Source of the DNA: Geoalkalibacter sp.
GTDB lineage: Bacteria > Desulfobacterota > Desulfuromonadia > Desulfuromonadales > Geoalkalibacteraceae
Assembly (NCBI RefSeq): GCF_030605225.1
Contig: NZ_JAUWAV010000043.1
Location: 1 to 33,775 of the forward strand
Length of the DNA: 33,775 nucleotides
Direction: 5' to 3'
A model generated the notes under the pieces. That model did not search any database, was not told the DNA's origin, and saw nothing but the letters and a program-made list of their open reading frames with translations. Shown piece by piece: positions 1 to 30,234 of the stretch (positions are counted from its first letter, which is position 1; each line of letters begins with the position of its first letter). Made by a program: the position numbers and the translations under genes.

Positions 1-22
1 AAACGATGGGGAGCTCAGGGGA

Positions 23-4313: not shown

Positions 4314-4359
4314 TTTTCAAGAATTTTGACATATCTGCTTGTTGCTTTTGGGATGACGT

Positions 4360-4388
4360 TTGACGATACTATTGGGGGGCGGTATTAT
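4360..4388 (+). promoter_or_regulatory. sigma-70-type promoter of higBA
   Basis: TTGACG (4360-4365) and TATTAT (4383-4388) are separated by exactly 17 bp; each matches the consensus at five of six positions. The expected start, 7 nt past the -10, is 4395, the A of the higB ATG, so the toxin transcript should be leaderless. An ATAC-N12-GTAT dyad lies over the spacer and could be part of a HigA operator; that part is speculative. Confidence 0.7.
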
Positions 4389-4394
4389 TCTGTC

Positions 4395-4676
4395 ATGATT
4401 CGAAGCTTTGCCTGCAAGGAAACAGAGCGGCTGTTCCATAGACGGTTTTCCAAAAAGTTGCCGCAGGACGTGCAGCGCATTGCTCAGCGAAAGTTGCAGC
4501 ATATCCATGCCGCGGCAACGTTGGATTTTCTACGGATTCCGCCCGGGAACCGGCTTGAACAACTCGCCGGCAATCGGATTGGCCAGTGGAGCATTCGCAT
4601 CAATGATCAATGGCGTATTTGTTTTCGGTGGCAGGACGGCAATGCGCACGATGTCGAGATCGTCGACTACCATTAG
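4395..4676 (+). CDS. higB: HigB-type toxin (RelE superfamily mRNA interferase)
   Basis: A 93-residue protein of the HigB/plasmid-maintenance killer family, ribosome-dependent RNases that cut mRNA. It starts with MIRSFACKETERLF, has IPPGNRLEQL at 48-57 and the signature RINDQWRICFRW at 68-79, and ends EIVDYH, as family members usually do. The length is typical. An in-frame extension upstream to 4326 is rejected because it lacks family sequence and crosses the promoter. The toxin precedes the antitoxin, the usual inverted higBA order, with 12 nt between them. HigA is expected to repress the promoter immediately upstream. Confidence 0.93.
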   Translation: MIRSFACKETERLFHRRFSKKLPQDVQRIAQRKLQHIHAAATLDFLRIPPGNRLEQLAGNRIGQWSIRINDQWRICFRWQDGNAHDVEIVDYH

Positions 4677-4688
4677 GGAGTTCCGTTA

Positions 4689-4994
4689 ATGAAAAAACAT
4701 GATCTTCCTCCGGTGCATCCCGGTGAAATTCTTCTTGAGGATTTTTTAAAGCCCATGGAAATCACGCGTTATCGTCTGGCTAAATCCATCGGTGTACCGC
4801 AACGGCGGGTGGACGAGATTTGTGCCGGCAAGCGCGCGATAACCGCGGATACGGCTTTGCGGCTTGCCCGGTTTTTCGGTACCGACGCACAGAGCTGGAT
4901 GAATCTGCAGAGTGCTTATGATCTGCAGGTGGCAGAGGATGCGCTTGCCGATCGGCTTAAGCGCGAAGTGACACCGCACAAGAATGCGGCCTGA
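4689..4994 (+). CDS. higA: HigA-type antitoxin (XRE family HTH)
   Basis: A 101-residue antitoxin that should bind and neutralise HigB and repress the shared promoter. The family start PPVHPGEIL is at residues 7-15. A helix-turn-helix spans about 26-62 (ITRYRLAKSIGVPQRRVDEI, then RAITADTALRLARFF), followed by the typical SWMNLQSAYDL. A GGGAG ribosome site at about 4677-4681 precedes the ATG. Its stop lies one base from the end of the convergent GT9 gene, with no terminator visible between them. Confidence 0.93.
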   Translation: MKKHDLPPVHPGEILLEDFLKPMEITRYRLAKSIGVPQRRVDEICAGKRAITADTALRLARFFGTDAQSWMNLQSAYDLQVAEDALADRLKREVTPHKNAA

Positions 4995-4995
4995 T

Positions 4996-6383
<1,388 letters not shown>

Positions 6384-6384
<1 letters not shown>

Positions 6385-8245: not shown

Positions 8246-8425
8246 CGCCAGGAGCCCCGCATGTCGCAAAAAACCGCACTGATCACCGGCGTCACCGGCC
8301 AGGACGGCGCCTACCTCGCTGAATTCCTTCTAAAAAAAGGGTACATCGTCCATGGCGTCAAGCGTCGTGCATCGCTGTTCAACACCGATCGCATCGATCA
8401 TCTCTACCAGGATCCGCATGTGGAG
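8246..8425 (+). repeat. Direct repeat, copy 2: 5' end of intact gmd
   Basis: This copy lies within the functional gmd gene and matches 6193-6372 at 177 of 180 positions. The three differences (G to T, G to A, G to A relative to copy 1) give an A7 run here and change one residue (Arg to Lys at codon 26). Homologous recombination between the copies would delete exactly 2053 bp, the FkbM-GT2 cassette, and leave one intact gmd. Confidence 0.95.
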
Positions 8426-9382
8426 AATCGTCACTTCATCCTCCACTACGGCGATCTGACCGATTCGACCAATCTGATCCGCATCATTCAGCAGGTGCAG
8501 CCGGACGAGATCTATAATCTTGCCGCGCAGTCCCATGTGGCCGTGTCTTTTGAAACGCCCGAATACACCGCCAACGCCGACGGAGTCGGCACCCTGCGGA
8601 TTCTCGAAGCCATCCGCATTCTCGGTTTGGAGAAAAAAACCCGCTTTTATCAGGCCTCGACCAGTGAGCTGTATGGTCTGGTGCAGGAGGTGCCGCAGAA
8701 AGAAACCACGCCCTTTTACCCGCGCTCGCCCTACGCTGTGGCCAAGCTCTATGCCTACTGGATCACCGTCAACTACCGCGAAGCCTATGGGATGTACGCC
8801 TGCAACGGGATTCTGTTTAACCACGAGTCGCCGATTCGCGGGGAAACCTTCGTCACGCGCAAGATCACTCGTGCCATGGCGCGCATCGCCTTGGGCCTGC
8901 AGGATTGCCTTTATCTCGGCAACATGAACGCCCTGCGCGATTGGGGTCATGCCCGCGATTACGTCGAGGCCCAGTGGCTCATGCTGCAGCAGGAGCAACC
9001 CGAGGATTTCGTTATTGCCACCGGGGTGCAGGTTTCGGTGCGTGATTTCGTCGATGCCGCCGCCAAGGAGTTGGGCATCAAGCTGCGCTGGGAAGGCGAG
9101 GGGGTCGACGAAATCGGCGTGGTCGAATCGGTGCAGGATGAAACAAAAGTCAAGACCTCGCCGGGCACCACGATTGTACGGGTCGATCCGCGCTATTTCC
9201 GGCCGACGGAAGTCGAAACCCTGCTCGGTGATCCGAGCAAGGCGAGGGAAAAGCTGGGCTGGACGGCAACGACTTCGCTGCAGGAACTGGTGAGCGAGAT
9301 GGTGCGCAGCGACCTGGAGGATGCCCAGCGTGATGAACTCTGTCGCAGGGAGGGGTTTCAGACCTTCAACTACCATGAATAA
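8261..9382 (+). CDS. gmd: GDP-mannose 4,6-dehydratase
   Basis: A 373-residue short-chain dehydrogenase/reductase family enzyme that converts GDP-D-mannose to GDP-4-keto-6-deoxy-D-mannose, the first step to GDP-L-fucose. The NADP loop GVTGQDG is at 10-16. The catalytic set corresponds to T134 and E136 (in STSE), Y158 and K162 (YAVAK), lining up with the E. coli enzyme. Full length for the family. AGGAG (8250-8254) lies 6 nt before the ATG. It overlaps fcl by 8 nt. The gene is GC-rich like the downstream operon and unlike the two genes upstream. Its first 165 bases are duplicated at 6208. Confidence 0.97.
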
Positions 9383-10328
9383 GCAGGCAAAAATTTTCGT
9401 CGCCGGGCACCATGGGCTGGTTGGCTCGGCCATTGTTCGTCGCCTGCGGGCCGCGGGTTACGACAACCTGGTGCTGCGCTCGCGCGCGGAGCTCGATCTG
9501 TGCGAACAGGCGGCGGTCCGAGAATTTTTCCGGCGGGAGAAACCCGAGTATGTGTTTCTCGCCGCCGCCAAGGTGGGGGGCATCGTCGCCAACAGCACCT
9601 GGCCTGCCGACTTCATCTACGAGAATCTGGCGATCCAGACCAACGTCATTCACAGTGCCTGGGAAAATGGCGTCACACGCCTGCTGTTTCTCGGATCATC
9701 CTGCATCTATCCAAAATTCGCACCTCAGCCCATGCGTGAGGAGCACCTTCTTACCGGCGAACTCGAGCCGACCAACGAGCCCTACGCCGTGGCCAAGATC
9801 GCCGGCATCAAGATGTGCCAGTCCTACAACCGGCAGCACGGCACGCATTTTCTCTCGGTGATGCCGACCAATCTTTACGGTCCCAACGACAATTTCGATC
9901 TGACCAGCTCGCATGTCATCCCGGCGCTGATGCGCAAAGTCCATGAAGCAAAAATCCATGGCGCGCCGACCGTTGAAATTTGGGGGACGGGTACGCCGCG
10001 CCGTGAGTTTTTGCATGTCGACGATATGGCCGATGCCTGCGTGTATGTCATGGAGACGCCGCAAGCCAGGCTCGATGCCCAGGCCGCGCCGTTCTGGAAT
10101 GTCGGTACGGGCACGGATGTGACCATTGCCGAATTGGCGCAAATCATCTGTGATGTCGTCGGTTATCAGGGCAAACTGGTTTTCAATACGGAAAAACCCG
10201 ATGGTGCGCCGCGCAAGCTGCTGGATGTGAGGCGCTTGCAGGATCTGGGCTGGAAGGCGCGTATTGATTTGCACACCGGACTCGCCGATACCTACCAGTG
10301 GTTTTTGCAAAACCAGCATCGAGGGTGA
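9375..10328 (+). CDS. fcl: GDP-L-fucose synthase (epimerase/reductase)
   Basis: A 317-residue SDR enzyme (WcaG/Fcl) that turns GDP-4-keto-6-deoxymannose into GDP-L-fucose by 3,5-epimerisation and NADPH reduction. The dinucleotide loop GHHGLVG is at 11-17, the catalytic Ser region LGSSCIYP includes S108/S109, and Y137-x3-K141 lies in EPYAVAK. The ATG at 9375 overlaps the end of gmd, so translation is probably coupled; an upstream in-frame ATG at 9321 lies deep in gmd and is rejected. The product would feed the GT10 fucosyltransferase encoded at 3267-4313. Confidence 0.96.
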
Positions 10329-10330
10329 GT

Positions 10331-10918
10331 ATGAACCTGGGCGAACAGATCGACGATCATTTCTTCCGTCATGCCGAGACGCTTGAATTGGCGCGAAAGG
10401 CGCTGGCGCCGACCATTGTGAAATGCACCGAGGCGCTGACCCATGCCTTGCGGGCCGGCAACAAGATTTTGCTTATGGGCAACGGCGGTTCCGCCGCTGA
10501 TGCCCAGCATTTCGCCGCCGAGCTGGTGGGGCGCTTTCTGCGCGAGCGCCGCGCGCTACCCGCGATTGCGCTGACCACCGATACTTCGCTGCTGACCGCC
10601 GTGGCCAATGATTTTGGTTTCGAGCAGGTGTTCAAACGCCAGGTGGAAGCCTTGGCCCGACCGGGCGATGTGGTGGTGGGCATCTCCACCAGCGGCAATT
10701 CGCCCAATGTCGCCCTGGCCCTGGAGGCGGCGCGCGCCATCGGCTGTATGACCGTCGGATTATTGGGTCGAGACGGCGGCGGCATCGCCCCCCTGGTCGA
10801 TATCGCTCTGACGGTGCCGGCCCAGCAAACGCCCCATATCCAGGAAGCCCATATCACCATCATTCATCTGCTCTGCGATCTGGTGGAGCGCACCCTGTTC
10901 GCCGAGGGCGAAAAATGA
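10331..10918 (+). CDS. gmhA: Sedoheptulose-7-phosphate isomerase (phosphoheptose isomerase)
   Basis: A 195-residue SIS-domain enzyme making D-glycero-D-manno-heptose 7-phosphate, the first step of ADP-heptose synthesis for LPS core. It shows GNGGSAADAQHFAAEL (50-65, with probable zinc ligands H60 and E64), STSGNSPN (119-126) and QTPHIQEAH near the C-terminus, which supplies the remaining metal ligands in the family. GAGG at 10321-10324 precedes the ATG by 6 nt, and only two bases separate it from fcl. Its TGA overlaps the next ATG (ATGA). Confidence 0.96.
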   Translation: MNLGEQIDDHFFRHAETLELARKALAPTIVKCTEALTHALRAGNKILLMGNGGSAADAQHFAAELVGRFLRERRALPAIALTTDTSLLTAVANDFGFEQVFKRQVEALARPGDVVVGISTSGNSPNVALALEAARAIGCMTVGLLGRDGGGIAPLVDIALTVPAQQTPHIQEAHITIIHLLCDLVERTLFAEGEK

Positions 10919-11874
10919 GCCGAACCTACCGTCCCATCGATCTGTCCCGCATCAAGACCTACTCCATCAAAACCCGCGACAACAAGGTCAATGTGCGCGA
11001 GCATTTCGCAACGCCTCCGCGCGCGGGTCTGAGCTTTGCAGAGTTTTTCGCCGGGATGCCCCGGCTGCTGGGTGCCGACAGCCTGCGCGGCGTGGTTGAT
11101 GCGGTGGTCGAGGCGCGGCGCCGCGATCGGCCCGTGGTTCTGGCCATGGGCGGGCACGTGATCAAGTGCGGGTTGCAGCCGGTGCTTAAAGCGCTGATCG
11201 AGGCCGGGGTGATTACGGCGGTGGCGATGAACGGCTCGGCGGCGATTCACGATTTCGAGGTGTCCCTGGTCGGTGCCACCTCCGAGGATGTGGGGGCGGT
11301 GCTGCATTCCGGCGATTTCGGTTTCTCCGAGGAGACCGGCGGCGGCATGAACCGCGCTCTGCAGGCAGGACTTGCTTCAGGCCTGGGCTATGGCGAAGCC
11401 ATTGGCCGCTGCATCGTCGATCAGGGCCATCCCCATCGCGACGCGAGCCTGCTGGCGGCCTGCGTGGACAACGCCATTCCCGTGACCGTGCATGTCGCCC
11501 TGGGCACCGATATCATCCATCAGCATCCCAGCGCCGACGGCGCCGTGGCCGGGGAGATGACCTTTCGCGATTTTCGCCTGCTGACTGCCGTTGTTGCCGA
11601 CCTGAGCGGCGGGGTGTGGCTCAACGTCGGCTCGGCGGTGCTGCTGCCCGAGGTGTTTCTCAAGGCGCTCTCCATCGCCCAGAACCTCGGTCATCAGGTC
11701 GATGGCTTCACCACCGCCAATTTCGATATGATCCAGCATTACCGGCCCCTGACCAACGTGGTGAAACGGCCGACCTCGGGCCATGGCCGCGGCTATACCA
11801 TCACCGGCCACCACGAGATCAACATCCCGCTGCTGGCGGCGGCGGTGCTGGACAGATTCAAGGATCGGGGGTGA
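10915..11874 (+). CDS. Conserved protein of unknown function, distantly deoxyhypusine-synthase-like, in the heptose operon
   Basis: A 319-residue soluble protein without signal peptide or membrane segment. It contains Gly-rich blocks: LAMGGHVIKCGL (77-87), MNGSAAIHDFEVSLVG (105-120), GATSEDV, FGFSEETGGG, HVALGTDIIHQHPSADG (193-209) and VWLNVGSAVLLPEVFLKA (234-251). The order and the final 'GG-V-hydrophobic-GS-V' segment recall the NAD-binding deoxyhypusine synthase fold. However, the catalytic lysine of that enzyme (GGGVVKHH region) is missing; the matching region reads NVGSAVLLPE. It overlaps gmhA by 4 nt and sits 7 nt before hldE, so it is co-translated with heptose genes. A role in heptose or nucleotide-sugar metabolism is a context inference only; I do not assign a reaction. 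Confidence 0.6.
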   Translation: MSRTYRPIDLSRIKTYSIKTRDNKVNVREHFATPPRAGLSFAEFFAGMPRLLGADSLRGVVDAVVEARRRDRPVVLAMGGHVIKCGLQPVLKALIEAGVITAVAMNGSAAIHDFEVSLVGATSEDVGAVLHSGDFGFSEETGGGMNRALQAGLASGLGYGEAIGRCIVDQGHPHRDASLLAACVDNAIPVTVHVALGTDIIHQHPSADGAVAGEMTFRDFRLLTAVVADLSGGVWLNVGSAVLLPEVFLKALSIAQNLGHQVDGFTTANFDMIQHYRPLTNVVKRPTSGHGRGYTITGHHEINIPLLAAAVLDRFKDRG

Positions 11875-11881
11875 GGGGACC

Positions 11882-13354
11882 ATGGATCGCGTTGCAATCG
11901 AATCCTTTCTTGCGCGTCTTCCCGGACTCAAAGCCCTGGTGGTCGGCGATCTGATGCTCGATGAATATGTGTGGGGCCGCACCGAGCGCATCTCCCCCGA
12001 GGCTCCCGTGCAGGTCGTGGACGTGGTGCGTCAGGATCTGCGCCTGGGTGGGGCGGGCAACGTGGTCAACAACCTGGTGGCCCTGGGCTGCCGCATCGAG
12101 GTGGCCGGCGCCCTCGGCGACGATGACGATGGCCGAAGCCTGCGCGCCATGCTGGCGGCGGCGGGTATCGGTACTGGCGGGTTGGTGTTCGCGCCCGGGC
12201 GCACCACCAGCCGCAAGACCCGCATCCTCGCGAGCAACCAGCAGATGCTGCGCATCGACCGGGAAAGCAAGGATCCCATCGGCACGGAACTGGAAACGCA
12301 GCTAATCGAGCGCATCCGCGCCCTGGTCGCCGGCTGCCAGGTCATTCTCGTGTCCGATTATCTCAAGGGCGTGCTGACCGAGGGCCTGTTGCGCGAGATC
12401 TTCGCCATCGGGCGAGCGACCGGCATTCCCGTCGTCGTCGATCCCAAGGGCAGTGATTATCGCAAATATCTGGGCGCGACCCTGCTCACGCCCAACCGCA
12501 AGGAAGCACAAGCCGCCTCGGGCATCGCCATCACTGACCAAGCCGGCCTGTGTCGCGCGGGTCGGGCGCTGCGCGATTCCCTGCGGCTGGAAGCCCTGGT
12601 GCTGACACGCAGCGAAGAGGGCATGAGCCTGTTTCTCGCCGACGGCCGCGAGGTGCACCTGCCCACCGAGGCGCGGGAAGTGTTTGATGTTTCCGGCGCG
12701 GGCGATACGGTGCTGTCGCTGCTCGGCGCCGGGCTGGGCGCCGGGCTGTCCGTGGAGCAGGCCGCCCAGGTGGCCAATCTGGCGGCGGGCATCGTGGTCG
12801 GCAAGGTCGGCACCTCCACCGTCTCCCCCGAGGAAATTCTCGAGGTCGTCGGCCGCCGGCATTCCGACAGCGATCTGAAAATAAAAAACCGAGAAATCCT
12901 AAGTGTTCTTCTCGAGCGCGAACGCGAGCGCGGCAAGCGCATCGTCTTCACCAACGGCTGTTTCGACCTGTTGCACGTCGGGCATGTGAAATACCTGCAA
13001 AAAGCCCGCAACCTCGGTGATCTGCTGGTGCTCGGGCTCAACTCGGACGCTTCCATCCGCCGCCTCAAGGGCCCCAAGCGCCCGCTCATCGGCGAGGAGG
13101 AGCGCGCCCATCTCCTGGCCGCCCTCAAGTGCATCGATTACGTCGTCATTTTCGACGAGGACACGCCCTTTGAGCTGATCGGCGCCCTGCGCCCGCACAT
13201 CCTGGTCAAGGGTGGGGATTACGCGCCCGAGGGCGTGGTCGGCAAGGAGTTGGTGGAAAGCTACGGCGGACGGGTCGAAATCATCCCCTTCGTGGACGGC
13301 AAGTCCACAACCAACGTCATCGAAACGATTCTCGAGCGCTATCGGGATGACTGA
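11882..13354 (+). CDS. hldE: Bifunctional heptose 7-phosphate kinase / heptose 1-phosphate adenylyltransferase
   Basis: A 490-residue two-domain enzyme. The N-terminal PfkB/ribokinase domain (about 1-320) phosphorylates heptose 7-phosphate at C1; it shows GDLMLDEYVWG near residue 22, GGAGNVVNNL and the catalytic GAGD at 272-275. The C-terminal cytidylyltransferase-like domain (about 345-490) adenylates heptose 1-phosphate; it shows FTNGCFDLLHVGH with HxGH at 365-368. The fusion makes this the standard Gram-negative HldE, so ADP- rather than GDP-heptose is made. The ATG at 11882 follows GAGGGG; upstream in-frame starts lie inside the preceding gene. It overlaps gmhB by 8 nt. Confidence 0.97.
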   Translation: MDRVAIESFLARLPGLKALVVGDLMLDEYVWGRTERISPEAPVQVVDVVRQDLRLGGAGNVVNNLVALGCRIEVAGALGDDDDGRSLRAMLAAAGIGTGGLVFAPGRTTSRKTRILASNQQMLRIDRESKDPIGTELETQLIERIRALVAGCQVILVSDYLKGVLTEGLLREIFAIGRATGIPVVVDPKGSDYRKYLGATLLTPNRKEAQAASGIAITDQAGLCRAGRALRDSLRLEALVLTRSEEGMSLFLADGREVHLPTEAREVFDVSGAGDTVLSLLGAGLGAGLSVEQAAQVANLAAGIVVGKVGTSTVSPEEILEVVGRRHSDSDLKIKNREILSVLLERERERGKRIVFTNGCFDLLHVGHVKYLQKARNLGDLLVLGLNSDASIRRLKGPKRPLIGEEERAHLLAALKCIDYVVIFDEDTPFELIGALRPHILVKGGDYAPEGVVGKELVESYGGRVEIIPFVDGKSTTNVIETILERYRDD

Positions 13355-13931
13355 GCAAGCAGAGCGTCGCGCGGTGTTCCTCGATCGCGACGGGACGATC
13401 AATGTCGAAAAGGATTATCTTTTCCGTCCCGAGGAATTTGAGTTCATCCCCGGTGCGCCCGAGGCTATCGCGCGGCTCAATCAGGCAGGCTTTCTTGTCG
13501 TGGTCGTGACCAACCAGTCGGGGGTGGCGCGGGGGTATTTCGGGGAAGCGGACGTTCGACGGCTGCATGATTTTATTCAGCGCAAGCTGGCTGATCATGG
13601 GGCCGTCGTCGATGCCTTCTATCTGTGTCCCCATCATCCCGAGCATGGGGTCGGACCCTACAGGGTCGCGTGCGATTGCCGCAAGGGTCATCCGGGCATG
13701 CTGTTGCGCGCGGCCGTGGAGCACCAGATTGATCTGCGCCGCTCCTTCATGGTCGGCGACAAGCTGGCCGACGTGGAGGCGGGGAATCGCGCCGGATGCC
13801 GCTCCCTGCTGGTGCTGAGCGGCTACGGGCCCGAGGACGCGAAAAAGTTGCAGCCCGGGGAGGCCGTGGTCGTCGCGGATCTCTCCGCGGCGGTGGACGA
13901 AATTCTGCGAAGCGAGGAAACTCCATCATGA
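13347..13931 (+). CDS. gmhB: D-glycero-D-manno-heptose 1,7-bisphosphate 7-phosphatase
   Basis: A 194-residue HAD-superfamily phosphatase that removes the C7 phosphate between the two HldE reactions. The HAD nucleophile motif DRDGT is at 13-17, [11 protein letters not shown] follows, and a Cys/His zinc-binding loop begins at C94 (CPHHPEHG, then CDCRKGHPG). The C-terminal metal motif is [12 protein letters not shown]. The ATG at 13347 lies within the end of hldE. Its stop overlaps the next ATG (ATGA). With gmhA and hldE, the pathway to ADP-D-glycero-D-manno-heptose is complete here; the final epimerase HldD is not in this window. Confidence 0.96.
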
Positions 13932-14950
13932 GCGCACCATCAGAGAAGATTCTCGTCACCGGCGCCGCCGGGTTCATCGGTTATCATCTGTGCGAGCGGC
14001 TGCTCGGCGAAGGATATGAGGTGGTCGGTCTCGACAACCTCAACGACTATTACGAGGTGTCCCTCAAGCAGGCGCGCCTGGCGCGACTCGTCGGGCGCGA
14101 GGGCTTTCGCTTCGTGCGCATGGATCTGGCGGATCGCGACAGCATGGCGGCCTTGTTCGCGCGGGAAAAATTCCAGCGCGTCGTCAACCTCGCCGCCCAG
14201 GCCGGGGTGCGCTACTCCCTGACCAATCCCCACGCCTACATCGACAGCAACCTGGTGGGCTTCATCAATATCCTCGAAGGCTGCCGGCACCATCAGGTCG
14301 AGCACCTGGTCTACGCCTCGTCGAGCTCGGTGTACGGCGCCAACACGCGCATGCCCTTTTCCATCCACGACAACGTCGATCATCCGGTGTCGCTCTACGC
14401 CGCGAGCAAAAAAGCCAACGAACTGATGGCCCACACCTACAGCCATCTCTACGGCCTGCCGACCACGGGGCTGCGCTTCTTCACCGTCTATGGCCCCTGG
14501 GGCCGGCCGGACATGGCGCTGTTTTTGTTCACCAAGGCGATTCTCGCCGGACGGCCCATCGACGTCTACAACCATGGCCGCATGCAGCGCGACTTCACCT
14601 ACATCGACGACATCATCGAAGGCGTGACGCGGGTGACATTCCGAACCGCGGCGCCCAATCCCCACTGGCGGGGCGATGCGCCCGATCCCGGCACCAGCGC
14701 GGCGCCCTATCGGCTCTACAACATCGGCAACAACAATCCCGTCGAACTGCTGGCGATGATTGGCATTCTCGAGCAGGAACTCGGCCGCGCGGCGCAAAAG
14801 AATCTCATGCCCCTGCAACCGGGCGATGTGCCCGCGACCTACGCCGACGTCGATGATCTGATGCGCGATACGGGCTTTCGCCCCGCGACACCCTTGCAGG
14901 AGGGTATTCGGCGCTTCGTCGCCTGGTATCGGGAATTCTATCCAGGCTGA
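13928..14950 (+). CDS. NAD-dependent epimerase, UDP-glucuronate 4-epimerase type
   Basis: A 340-residue extended SDR protein closest to the CapI/LspL-type UDP-glucuronate 4-epimerases that make UDP-galacturonate. The NAD loop TGAAGFIG is at 11-18, DNLNDYY at 36-42, [10 protein letters not shown] follows, and the Y157-x3-K161 pair sits in YAASKKANE. Also present are [17 protein letters not shown] and the QPGDV segment typical of this group. The sequence does not resemble HldD, although its operon position might suggest it. It overlaps gmhB by 4 nt and is the last gene of the operon. GalA occurs in many LPS cores and O-antigens. Confidence 0.88.
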
Positions 14951-28920: not shown

Positions 28921-30234
28921 ATGCATCCCATAAAAGCTTTTCTGATGTTTGCCGCTTTGCTGCTGCTCCTGCCGGGCGGCGCCTCGGGGCAGACCCGGAC
29001 CCCCGCCAAGGTCCAGGATCTGCGCTTCTGGAGCAATCCGACCTATACGCGGGTGGTCATCGACGTCTCCCGGGAGGTCGACTATCGTTTCGCCACTCTG
29101 CCGGCCGATCCCAAGGCGGGCATCGGCAATCGCCTTTACGTGGATATTCTCGGCGCCGAACGGGCGGGGAGCCTCAAGGCCGCCTATCCCGTGGAAGACG
29201 GCCTGCTCAAGCAGGTGCGCCTCGGCAGCCCCCAGGGGAGCACCACGCGCGTCGTCTTCGATTTGACCAAGCTCGGCGACTACAAGGTCTTTCACCTCAG
29301 CGATCCCTTTCGCATCGTCGTCGATCTGGCCGGCGACGGCCTGCCTTCCCTCAGCAGCAATCATCCCGAAATCCGCGCCATGCCTCCCGCGCCTGCACCC
29401 GCACCCGCCAAGCCCGCGGCCAAATCCGCCGCGCCCGCGCCCGCCAAGGCGCCATCGGGCAAGGAGGACGGCATCGGGCGCATTCTCGATCGCGCGCCCG
29501 ACGACAAGCCCTTGAGCATTCATCTACCCAGCGGCCAGGAGCGCGCGAGCCTGCGCCGCATCGTGGTCGATCCGGGACACGGCGGCAAGGACCCGGGGGC
29601 GGTGGGGCCCAACGGCCTTCTTGAAAAAGACGTCAACCTGGCCATGGCCAAGCTGCTCAAGGCCCATCTCGAAAAAGAGCTGGGGGTGGAAGTCCACCTC
29701 ACCCGAGACCGCGACGTCTATCTGTCCCTGCAGGAGCGCACCGCCATCGCCAATCGCCTCGATGCCGACCTGTTCATTTCCCTGCATGCCAACGCCAGCC
29801 CCAATCGCGGCGCCTACGGCACGGAGACCTATTTCCTCAACCTGGCGCGCAGCGAGCAGGCCGCGGCCGTCGCCGCGCGGGAAAACGGCACCACCCTCAA
29901 GGAGGTGGGCGATCTCGAGGCCATTCTCTTCGACCTCATGGCCAACGCCAAGATCAATGAATCGAGCCGCCTGGCCTCGGAGATTCAGAAGGCCCTGGTG
30001 TCCGACCTCAGCCGCAGTTTCACCAACATCAAGGATCTGGGCGTGCGCCAGGGCCCGTTTCACGTGCTGATCGGCGCCACCATGCCCTCGGTGCTGGTCG
30101 AGGTGGCCTTCATCAGCCATCCGCGGGAAGAGGCCCTGCTGGCCGATCGCCAGTTTCAGGACAAGAGTGCTCGCGCCATCGCCCGCGCGGTGCGCAATTA
30201 CGGCGTGGCCCTCAATCTGCTGGCGCAAAACTGA
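28921..30234 (+). CDS. amiC: N-acetylmuramoyl-L-alanine amidase (AMIN plus Amidase_3)
   Basis: A 437-residue periplasmic zinc amidase that cleaves the peptide from peptidoglycan during cell separation. A signal peptide covers about residues 1-24 (hydrophobic core FLMFAALLLLLPGG). An AMIN domain (about 30-130) would target it to the envelope or septum. A Pro/Ala/Lys linker follows, then Amidase_3 with VVDPGHGGKDPGA (H220), E235, H289 in SLHANAS and E394 in VLVEVAFISHP. ATG 28921 has AAGGA 7 nt ahead; ATG 28897 and 28915 would add eight or two residues. It follows mutS closely and is probably cotranscribed with it. Confidence 0.94.
   Translation: MHPIKAFLMFAALLLLLPGGASGQTRTPAKVQDLRFWSNPTYTRVVIDVSREVDYRFATLPADPKAGIGNRLYVDILGAERAGSLKAAYPVEDGLLKQVRLGSPQGSTTRVVFDLTKLGDYKVFHLSDPFRIVVDLAGDGLPSLSSNHPEIRAMPPAPAPAPAKPAAKSAAPAPAKAPSGKEDGIGRILDRAPDDKPLSIHLPSGQERASLRRIVVDPGHGGKDPGAVGPNGLLEKDVNLAMAKLLKAHLEKELGVEVHLTRDRDVYLSLQERTAIANRLDADLFISLHANASPNRGAYGTETYFLNLARSEQAAAVAARENGTTLKEVGDLEAILFDLMANAKINESSRLASEIQKALVSDLSRSFTNIKDLGVRQGPFHVLIGATMPSVLVEVAFISHPREEALLADRQFQDKSARAIARAVRNYGVALNLLAQN

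Follow-up and report, generated by a model that had tools for sequence, protein, structure and literature searches.

A GSU2086-family protein with a predicted DHS/OCD fold, encoded beside gmhA and a possible participant in heptose synthesis where HldD is missing

The Locus

The window (the whole stretch of DNA analyzed, 33,775 nucleotides) was found to carry a tightly packed gene run in the order gmd–fcl–gmhA–P–hldE–gmhB–SDR (Table 1), in which P is used as shorthand for a 319-aa protein of the GSU2086 family. The P gene opens with an ATG at 10915 and ends with a stop codon at 11872–11874. As gmhA extends to 10918, the two genes have 4 nt (ATGA) in common, and a gap of 7 nt separates P from the ATG of hldE at 11882, in agreement with the length, overlap and spacing given in an earlier note on this DNA. 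Elsewhere in the run, 2 nt lie between the end of the fcl ORF and gmhA, hldE and gmhB overlap by 8 nt, and gmhB and the SDR gene overlap by 4 nt. GmhB and both domains of HldE score above their NCBIfam cut-offs; GmhA falls just below two equivalog cut-offs, that of TIGR00441 (Table 1) and that of PRK13936 (231 against 276).

Table 1. Features of the gene run containing P
Feature	Position	Strand	Basis
gmd, GDP-mannose 4,6-dehydratase	8261..9382	+	600 bits, cut-off 415; upstream, same gene run
fcl ORF, GDP-L-fucose synthase	9321..10328	+	517 bits, cut-off 500; match from residue 22
gmhA, phosphoheptose isomerase	10331..10918	+	PRK13936 E 8e-69; TIGR00441 206.5 bits, cut-off 209.45
P, predicted DHS/OCD fold	10915..11874	+	NF052581 428 bits, cut-off 250; predicted fold; conserved residues
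hldE, bifunctional heptose-7-P kinase / heptose-1-P adenylyltransferase	11882..13354	+	TIGR02198 384 bits, TIGR02199 217 bits, both above cut-off
gmhB, heptose 1,7-bisphosphate phosphatase	13347..13931	+	PRK08942 194 bits, cut-off 178
SDR-type NAD-dependent epimerase/dehydratase	13928..14950	+	TIGR02197 92 bits, cut-off 274.6; dTDP-glucose dehydratase 151, GalE 146

The match of P to the NCBIfam model NF052581 ("GSU2086 family protein"; 428.4 bits) covers model positions 1–301 of 301, and by this score P is a member of that family, which has no assigned function. An alignment of 196 rows (approximately 190 distinct genes, about six being in twice, with record titles from several phyla) has 55 near-invariant positions in common, by which the ORF is recognized as a real gene. 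The protein had previously been presented as undescribed; this holds in so far as its function is still unassigned, but the NCBIfam family exists and GSU2086 is listed in the excerpted text of a Tn-seq study (PMC5585712).

Two further features were noted upstream in the window. An ORF at 5317–6384 ends in a segment (6217–6372) that resembles residues 1–52 of GDP-mannose 4,6-dehydratase (E 1.3e-22). The full gmd lies at 8261, and this segment is perhaps a second copy of its start, bordering inserted genes. Two small tandem ORFs at 4326–4994 have, by eye on their translations, the look of a HigB/HigA-type toxin–antitoxin system.

Predicted Fold and Relatives

The structure of P was modeled with AlphaFold from a 72-member alignment (71 dereplicated sequences of 78 usable relatives, together with P), giving a model of pLDDT 91.1 and pTM 0.89. 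Comparison of this model by Foldseek and VIA-align ranked deoxyhypusine synthase (DHS; 7cmc, Z 20.8, rmsd 3.8, 277 residues) essentially level with the C-terminal domain of ArgZ/AgrE (Z 20.0–20.5, with ArgZ 6juy at 20.5 over 212 residues), the range becoming 19.6–20.5 when 3c2q is included. On the strength of the model, P is a member of the DHS/OCD superfamily, with a Rossmann-type fold over most of its chain, and is not a DHS. As DHS and ArgZ/AgrE structures rank at the top, the likeness to DHS claimed in the earlier note holds at the level of the predicted fold, for which a fold search had been suggested and recovered Z of about 20. In sequence it is weak, the Pfam DS score being 16.4 bits against a cut-off of 27.

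The ArgZ-type C-terminal domain is likewise a sub-threshold Pfam match to P, at 22 bits against the same cut-off, and the ornithine cyclodeaminase (OCD)/ArgZ C-terminal domain is the closest named sequence relative, with DHS second. Across the family, 53 of the 72 members match PF21570 and 27 match DS at E ≤ 0.01. A profile–profile comparison of the P family with DHS-like proteins gave a probability of 96 over 289 columns. The TIGR00300 equivalog was not reached (15.3 bits, cut-off 410.8), the score of P against the dhys model was far under its cut-off, and TIGR02197 (HldD) gave no match to P at E ≤ 1. Searched against solved structures, the single P sequence returned chance CFTR matches only (E 1.6 or worse) and the family profile no match at E ≤ 10.

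Searching the genome of the window with Pfam DS (PF01916) returned no match at E ≤ 0.001. The same genome encodes a second protein of the DHS/OCD superfamily (L150, contig C28 near 29229–29870; PF21570, 208 bits), a relative of which (L151) is named as a putative NPN-dependent ornithine cyclodeaminase.

Invariant Residues

Fourteen residues, namely H81, K84, H112, E115, H193, D199, H202, E246, K250, D271, Y276, R277, N281, and R285, are invariant in all 196 rows, K84 and K250 being the only fully invariant lysines. As read from the alignment, this set has the pattern of an enzyme. DHS binds its polyamine by acidic residues, and its catalytic lysine (K329 of human DHS) lies in an SWGK motif. 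SWGK is present in an ORF of each of the 15 loci that match DS best, whereas WGK is found in none of the 196 P-family rows, and the earlier description of the catalytic-lysine region as altered is borne out. The basic invariant residues of P may line its active site, and an active site of His, Arg, and Lys would favor a phosphorylated or otherwise anionic sugar substrate over a polyamine.

Several candidate positions were discarded during this analysis. The register of the DHS catalytic lysine in P from the profile–profile alignment is untrustworthy; K284, the nearest equivalent by eye, is lysine in only 84 of 196 rows; and C85, which seemed invariant in 72 sequences, is cysteine in 87 and valine in 101 of the 196.

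That P is a bacterial polyamine enzyme of the deoxyhypusine or homospermidine synthase type, merely located in a sugar operon, would suit the common fold and the profile–profile match to DHS-like proteins. We consider it very improbable, given the complete absence of WGK from the alignment and the distance of P from the DS and dhys cut-offs. Gene neighborhoods also count against a polyamine role, as gmhA is the recurrent partner of P and no gene of polyamine type was apparent among the 16 commonest neighboring clusters (of which three, besides P and GmhA, were scanned with family models). A literature search returned no paper pairing phosphoheptose isomerase with deoxyhypusine synthase.

Pairing with gmhA and Other Neighbors

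Sixty P loci (L178–L237) were hand-picked from the phylum hit list, in which the best matches stand at the top; beyond the initial 30, approximately alternate rows were taken. In 52 of these, gmhA lies next to P, in the same orientation and no more than 400 bp away, and in 50 of the 52 it is upstream by midpoint. The two genes overlap or lie no more than 30 bp apart in 41 of 50 usable pairs, with start codons chosen by script and one gap (−1553) dropped as an artefact (42 of 51 with it); the overlap is exactly 4 nt in 15. Both of the GmhA motifs sought were found in 47 of 51 P-adjacent GmhA proteins. Among the first 30 P loci GmhA was found in 27 with a flank of only 1.5 kb. HldE or its kinase half is a neighbor of P in many of the Desulfuromonadales/Geobacter loci listed, but in only 2 of the 60 surveyed, and a heptose-kinase gene follows P in loci titled Omnitrophota (L107), Verrucomicrobia (L096), and Nitrospirae (L098).

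In Poribacteria gmhA is absent near P, and the usual neighbor is an O-antigen-ligase-like gene (16 of 26 loci, L083 and L086–L110, with one representative scanned with models). Eleven P-bearing genomes were searched, the loci leading to them being for the most part from phyla other than that of the window; six are Poribacteria, and one (L071), with the title Candidatus Anaeroferrophillacea, is possibly a member of the phylum of the window after all. A heptose kinase is encoded in all 11 (330 bits or more, eight being over the cut-off of 345) and GmhA in nine (180 bits or more, two being over the cut-off). The six Poribacteria genomes encode both gmhA and the heptose kinase away from P, and P therefore tracks the heptose pathway even where it is unlinked to it.

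A strong link of P to the heptose pathway is thus highly probable. It supports the role in heptose metabolism proposed in the earlier note, and the adjacency of gmhA in 52 of 60 loci contradicts the idea that orthologues lie consistently away from heptose genes.

The neighborhoods also brought to mind tetrapyrrole synthesis, as hemC occurs at 22 of the 60 loci, always downstream of P and on the same strand, and a cobA–hemD fusion at 18–20 (both identities being taken from one representative each). That P serves tetrapyrrole synthesis is nevertheless highly unlikely. The commoner neighbor is gmhA, P of the window stands in a gmd–fcl–gmhA–P–hldE–gmhB run, and the usual neighbor in Poribacteria resembles an O-antigen ligase. 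The presence of hemC downstream at 22 of 60 loci is unexplained by a role in heptose synthesis.

Other arrangements were observed. Part of the phylum has the order gmhA–P–hemC–hemD. At 11–12 of the 60 loci (e.g., L230:5636–6013) a cyclophilin-like protein of 125 aa (PF04126) is encoded downstream of P. A second copy of P in one genome (G053, locus L130:1800–10023) has no gmhA beside it and stands in a series comprising gmd (partial ORF), a sugar O-methyltransferase, an Fcl-like gene, P, a sulfoquinovose-synthase-like gene, and a heptosyltransferase-like gene. In one MAG, P is split over three reading frames (L077:6207–7174) with gmhA on one side and hldE on the other, and an unbroken P is found on another contig (L038). 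Repeated open frames of approximately 520 aa were considered as gmhA–P fusions and rejected as open-frame artefacts, because GmhA and P are separate ORFs in different frames in the loci fetched.

Electrode Phenotype of GSU2086

The excerpted text of the Tn-seq study of Geobacter sulfurreducens on electrodes gives values, described there as log2 ratios, of −3.7 for GSU2087 (gmhA), −3.2 for GSU2086, and −3.1 for GSU2085 (hldE), so that the defect of GSU2086 is about as large as those of the two heptose genes; GSU2086 is entered there under the description 'hypothetical cytoplasmic protein in sugar biosynthesis operon' (PMC5585712). We take GSU2086 to be the orthologue of P by its family name and its place between gmhA and hldE. 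In the same excerpt read-through from the cassette is shown for another operon and polar effects are called generally alleviated (PMC5585712), so the GSU2086 defect may well be its own, with some partial polarity on hldE possible. As far as the excerpt goes, the phenotype ties the P family to Geobacter surface growth.

Distribution of P and the Missing HldD

HldD (TIGR02197, cut-off 274.6 bits) is absent from the window, and no protein of its genome (89 contigs, 99.96% complete) exceeds the cut-off, the best match having an E-value of 4.5e-37. The SDR at the end of the gene run was considered as a disguised HldD and rejected, since other epimerase/dehydratase models fit it better (Table 1). 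The ADP-heptose pathway, described earlier as otherwise complete, consequently has no recognizable HldD in either the window or the genome, and P may be a replacement instead of an extra enzyme.

An even draw of 297 genomes of the phylum, including that of the window, was surveyed. Presence was read by hand from tables, six genomes with sub-cut-off P matches were scored as lacking it, and genomes whose best heptose-kinase match was no better than E 1e-50 were scored as kinase-negative. TIGR00441 was left out as a classifier because the GmhA of the window itself scores just under its cut-off. P was found in 180 of the 297 genomes and HldD over its cut-off in 64, the latter in 12 of 180 genomes with P against 52 of 117 without. 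Restricting the comparison to kinase-bearing genomes gave 10 of 165 against 51 of 109 (Fisher p 2e-15, a value which ignores relatedness), and counting by family, as the majority per family, gave 6 of 61 against 16 of 31 (p 2e-5). Within families, P and HldD co-occurred 10 times against an expectation of 12.8 ± 1.1 (sd), and five families (f4, f20, f57, f62, and f92) hold both P-only and HldD-only species. Much of the anti-association follows clades, with a within-family signal of approximately 2.5 sd.

HldD was found in none of the 11 P genomes mostly outside the phylum, and in 7 of 50 P-bearing genomes mostly titled Desulfuromonadales/Geobacter, of which at least three are common to the set of 297. 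By the E 1e-50 limit a heptose kinase is missing from 15 of the 180 P-bearing genomes, the most complete of which is at 98%. In a second phylum, represented by only eight genomes, P was over the cut-off in seven. Among the kinase-bearing genomes, 10 encode P together with HldD and 58 encode neither of them, so that neither protein is obligatory and the swap is not a clean one.

These last genomes bear on a different reading, in which P acts in the heptose pathway other than as an epimerase, modifying or channeling the substrate or product of GmhA through another redox isomerization or as a partner or regulator of GmhA, while the absence of HldD is unrelated and D-glycero heptose is used. Taken jointly, these forms are a real possibility that falls short of being probable. 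The tightest link of P is indeed with gmhA, in both adjacency and spacing, and the 58 kinase-bearing genomes with neither P nor HldD suggest that D-glycero heptose alone is workable. A non-epimerase role, however, leaves the anti-association with HldD and the enzyme-like invariant residues without a common cause.

Candidate Cofactors

P may use NAD or the nickel-pincer nucleotide (NPN) as cofactor. That P is an NPN enzyme, with NPN as hydride carrier on a heptose phosphate, would be compatible with epimerization. Its nearest named relatives are the ArgZ C-terminal domain and TIGR00300, the latter named NPN-dependent by NCBIfam, although the AgrE structure was, by its title, solved with NAD+ (6lrg). 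In the phylum survey, LarC was found in 64 of 64 P-bearing genomes of at least 99% completeness against 41 of 58 without P, in 98 of 99 against 57 of 76 at 97% completeness, and, by family among genomes of 95% or more, in 50 of 50 against 22 of 31. The genome of the window has adjacent larB and larC (L249:7289–9225), between ftsK- and cinA/pgpA-like genes. This distribution of LarC suggests that P may need NPN. Against this, LarC is common in any case (251 of the 297 phylum genomes), and of the 22 LarC-negative genomes of 95% or more that lack P, 13 belong to three families. LarC is also missing from 17 of the 180 P-bearing genomes, one of which is 98% and two 96% complete, where approximately nine would be expected from incompleteness alone. 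On balance a dependence on NPN is rather unlikely, though well worth considering. A literature search returned no paper joining nickel-pincer nucleotide or nickel pincer to ornithine cyclodeaminase or ornithine, and in the excerpted text of a paper in which nickel-pincer, LarC, and ornithine all occur no link is made between them (PMC8305020).

Proposed Role and Significance

Members of the DHS/OCD superfamily abstract a hydride from their substrate and return one after rearrangement. We infer, tentatively, that P is a hydride-transfer enzyme of the heptose branch working beside GmhA, perhaps a C6-epimerase whose activity would make HldD dispensable. P would retain the DHS/OCD scaffold around a new active site with many invariant His, Arg, and Lys residues. 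Its substrate would be the heptose-7-phosphate from GmhA or a heptose phosphate further along the pathway, of which it would invert one carbon by oxidation and re-reduction. C6 is the best candidate, and its inversion would let L-glycero heptose form without HldD, the epimerase of the last step. ADP-heptose is doubtful as the substrate, since P adjoins gmhA and not the late-pathway genes. Epimerization is the simplest reading that joins the predicted fold, the gmhA pairing and the absence of HldD, although another step at the product of GmhA is equally likely.

A more specific form would make P an NPN-dependent sugar-phosphate epimerase that inverts C6 of heptose-7-phosphate before activation, providing a second, so far unrecognized route to L-glycero-D-manno-heptose which replaces HldD in much of the phylum of the window, in Poribacteria, and in others. 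In all these particulars it is distinctly unlikely.

The ADP-heptose pathway is commonly regarded as a settled one. Nevertheless, 168 of the 180 P-bearing genomes of the phylum lack HldD by the standard model while carrying P, a conserved partner of GmhA. If epimerization by P does take place at an earlier step, a core pathway of LPS synthesis would gain a second form, the annotation of HldD-lacking bacteria would change, and the DHS/OCD fold would acquire a sugar-phosphate branch. Should NPN prove to be the cofactor, the small set of nickel-pincer enzymes would expand into central envelope metabolism.

Comparison with Known Systems

DHS (PF01916) has its fold in common with the model of P along the whole chain, but carries its catalytic lysine in SWGK, where the P family is without WGK and has a basic, histidine-rich invariant set instead. 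The OCD/ArgZ–AgrE group (TIGR00300, NF052526, PF21570) matches P in predicted fold (Z about 20) and is its best match in sequence, including an HDxE motif (H112–E115) and an aspartate aligned to D199. P nevertheless scores far below the cut-offs of that group and has GTDIIHQHP in place of the stretch SIRDDGPLP. It leaves the N-terminal LOR/SDH region unmatched, and has gmhA as its gene partner. HldD (TIGR02197), an SDR-fold NADP enzyme acting on a nucleotide sugar, differs from P in fold, and the gene next to that of P encodes the enzyme with which the pathway begins; P and HldD are anti-distributed and possibly provide the same net step in heptose supply. P matches NF052581 over its full length and thus belongs to the same family, so far known by name only, to which a predicted fold, a pathway link, and the HldD and LarC distributions are added here. 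A role in heptose synthesis for a member of the DHS/OCD superfamily is a new proposal.
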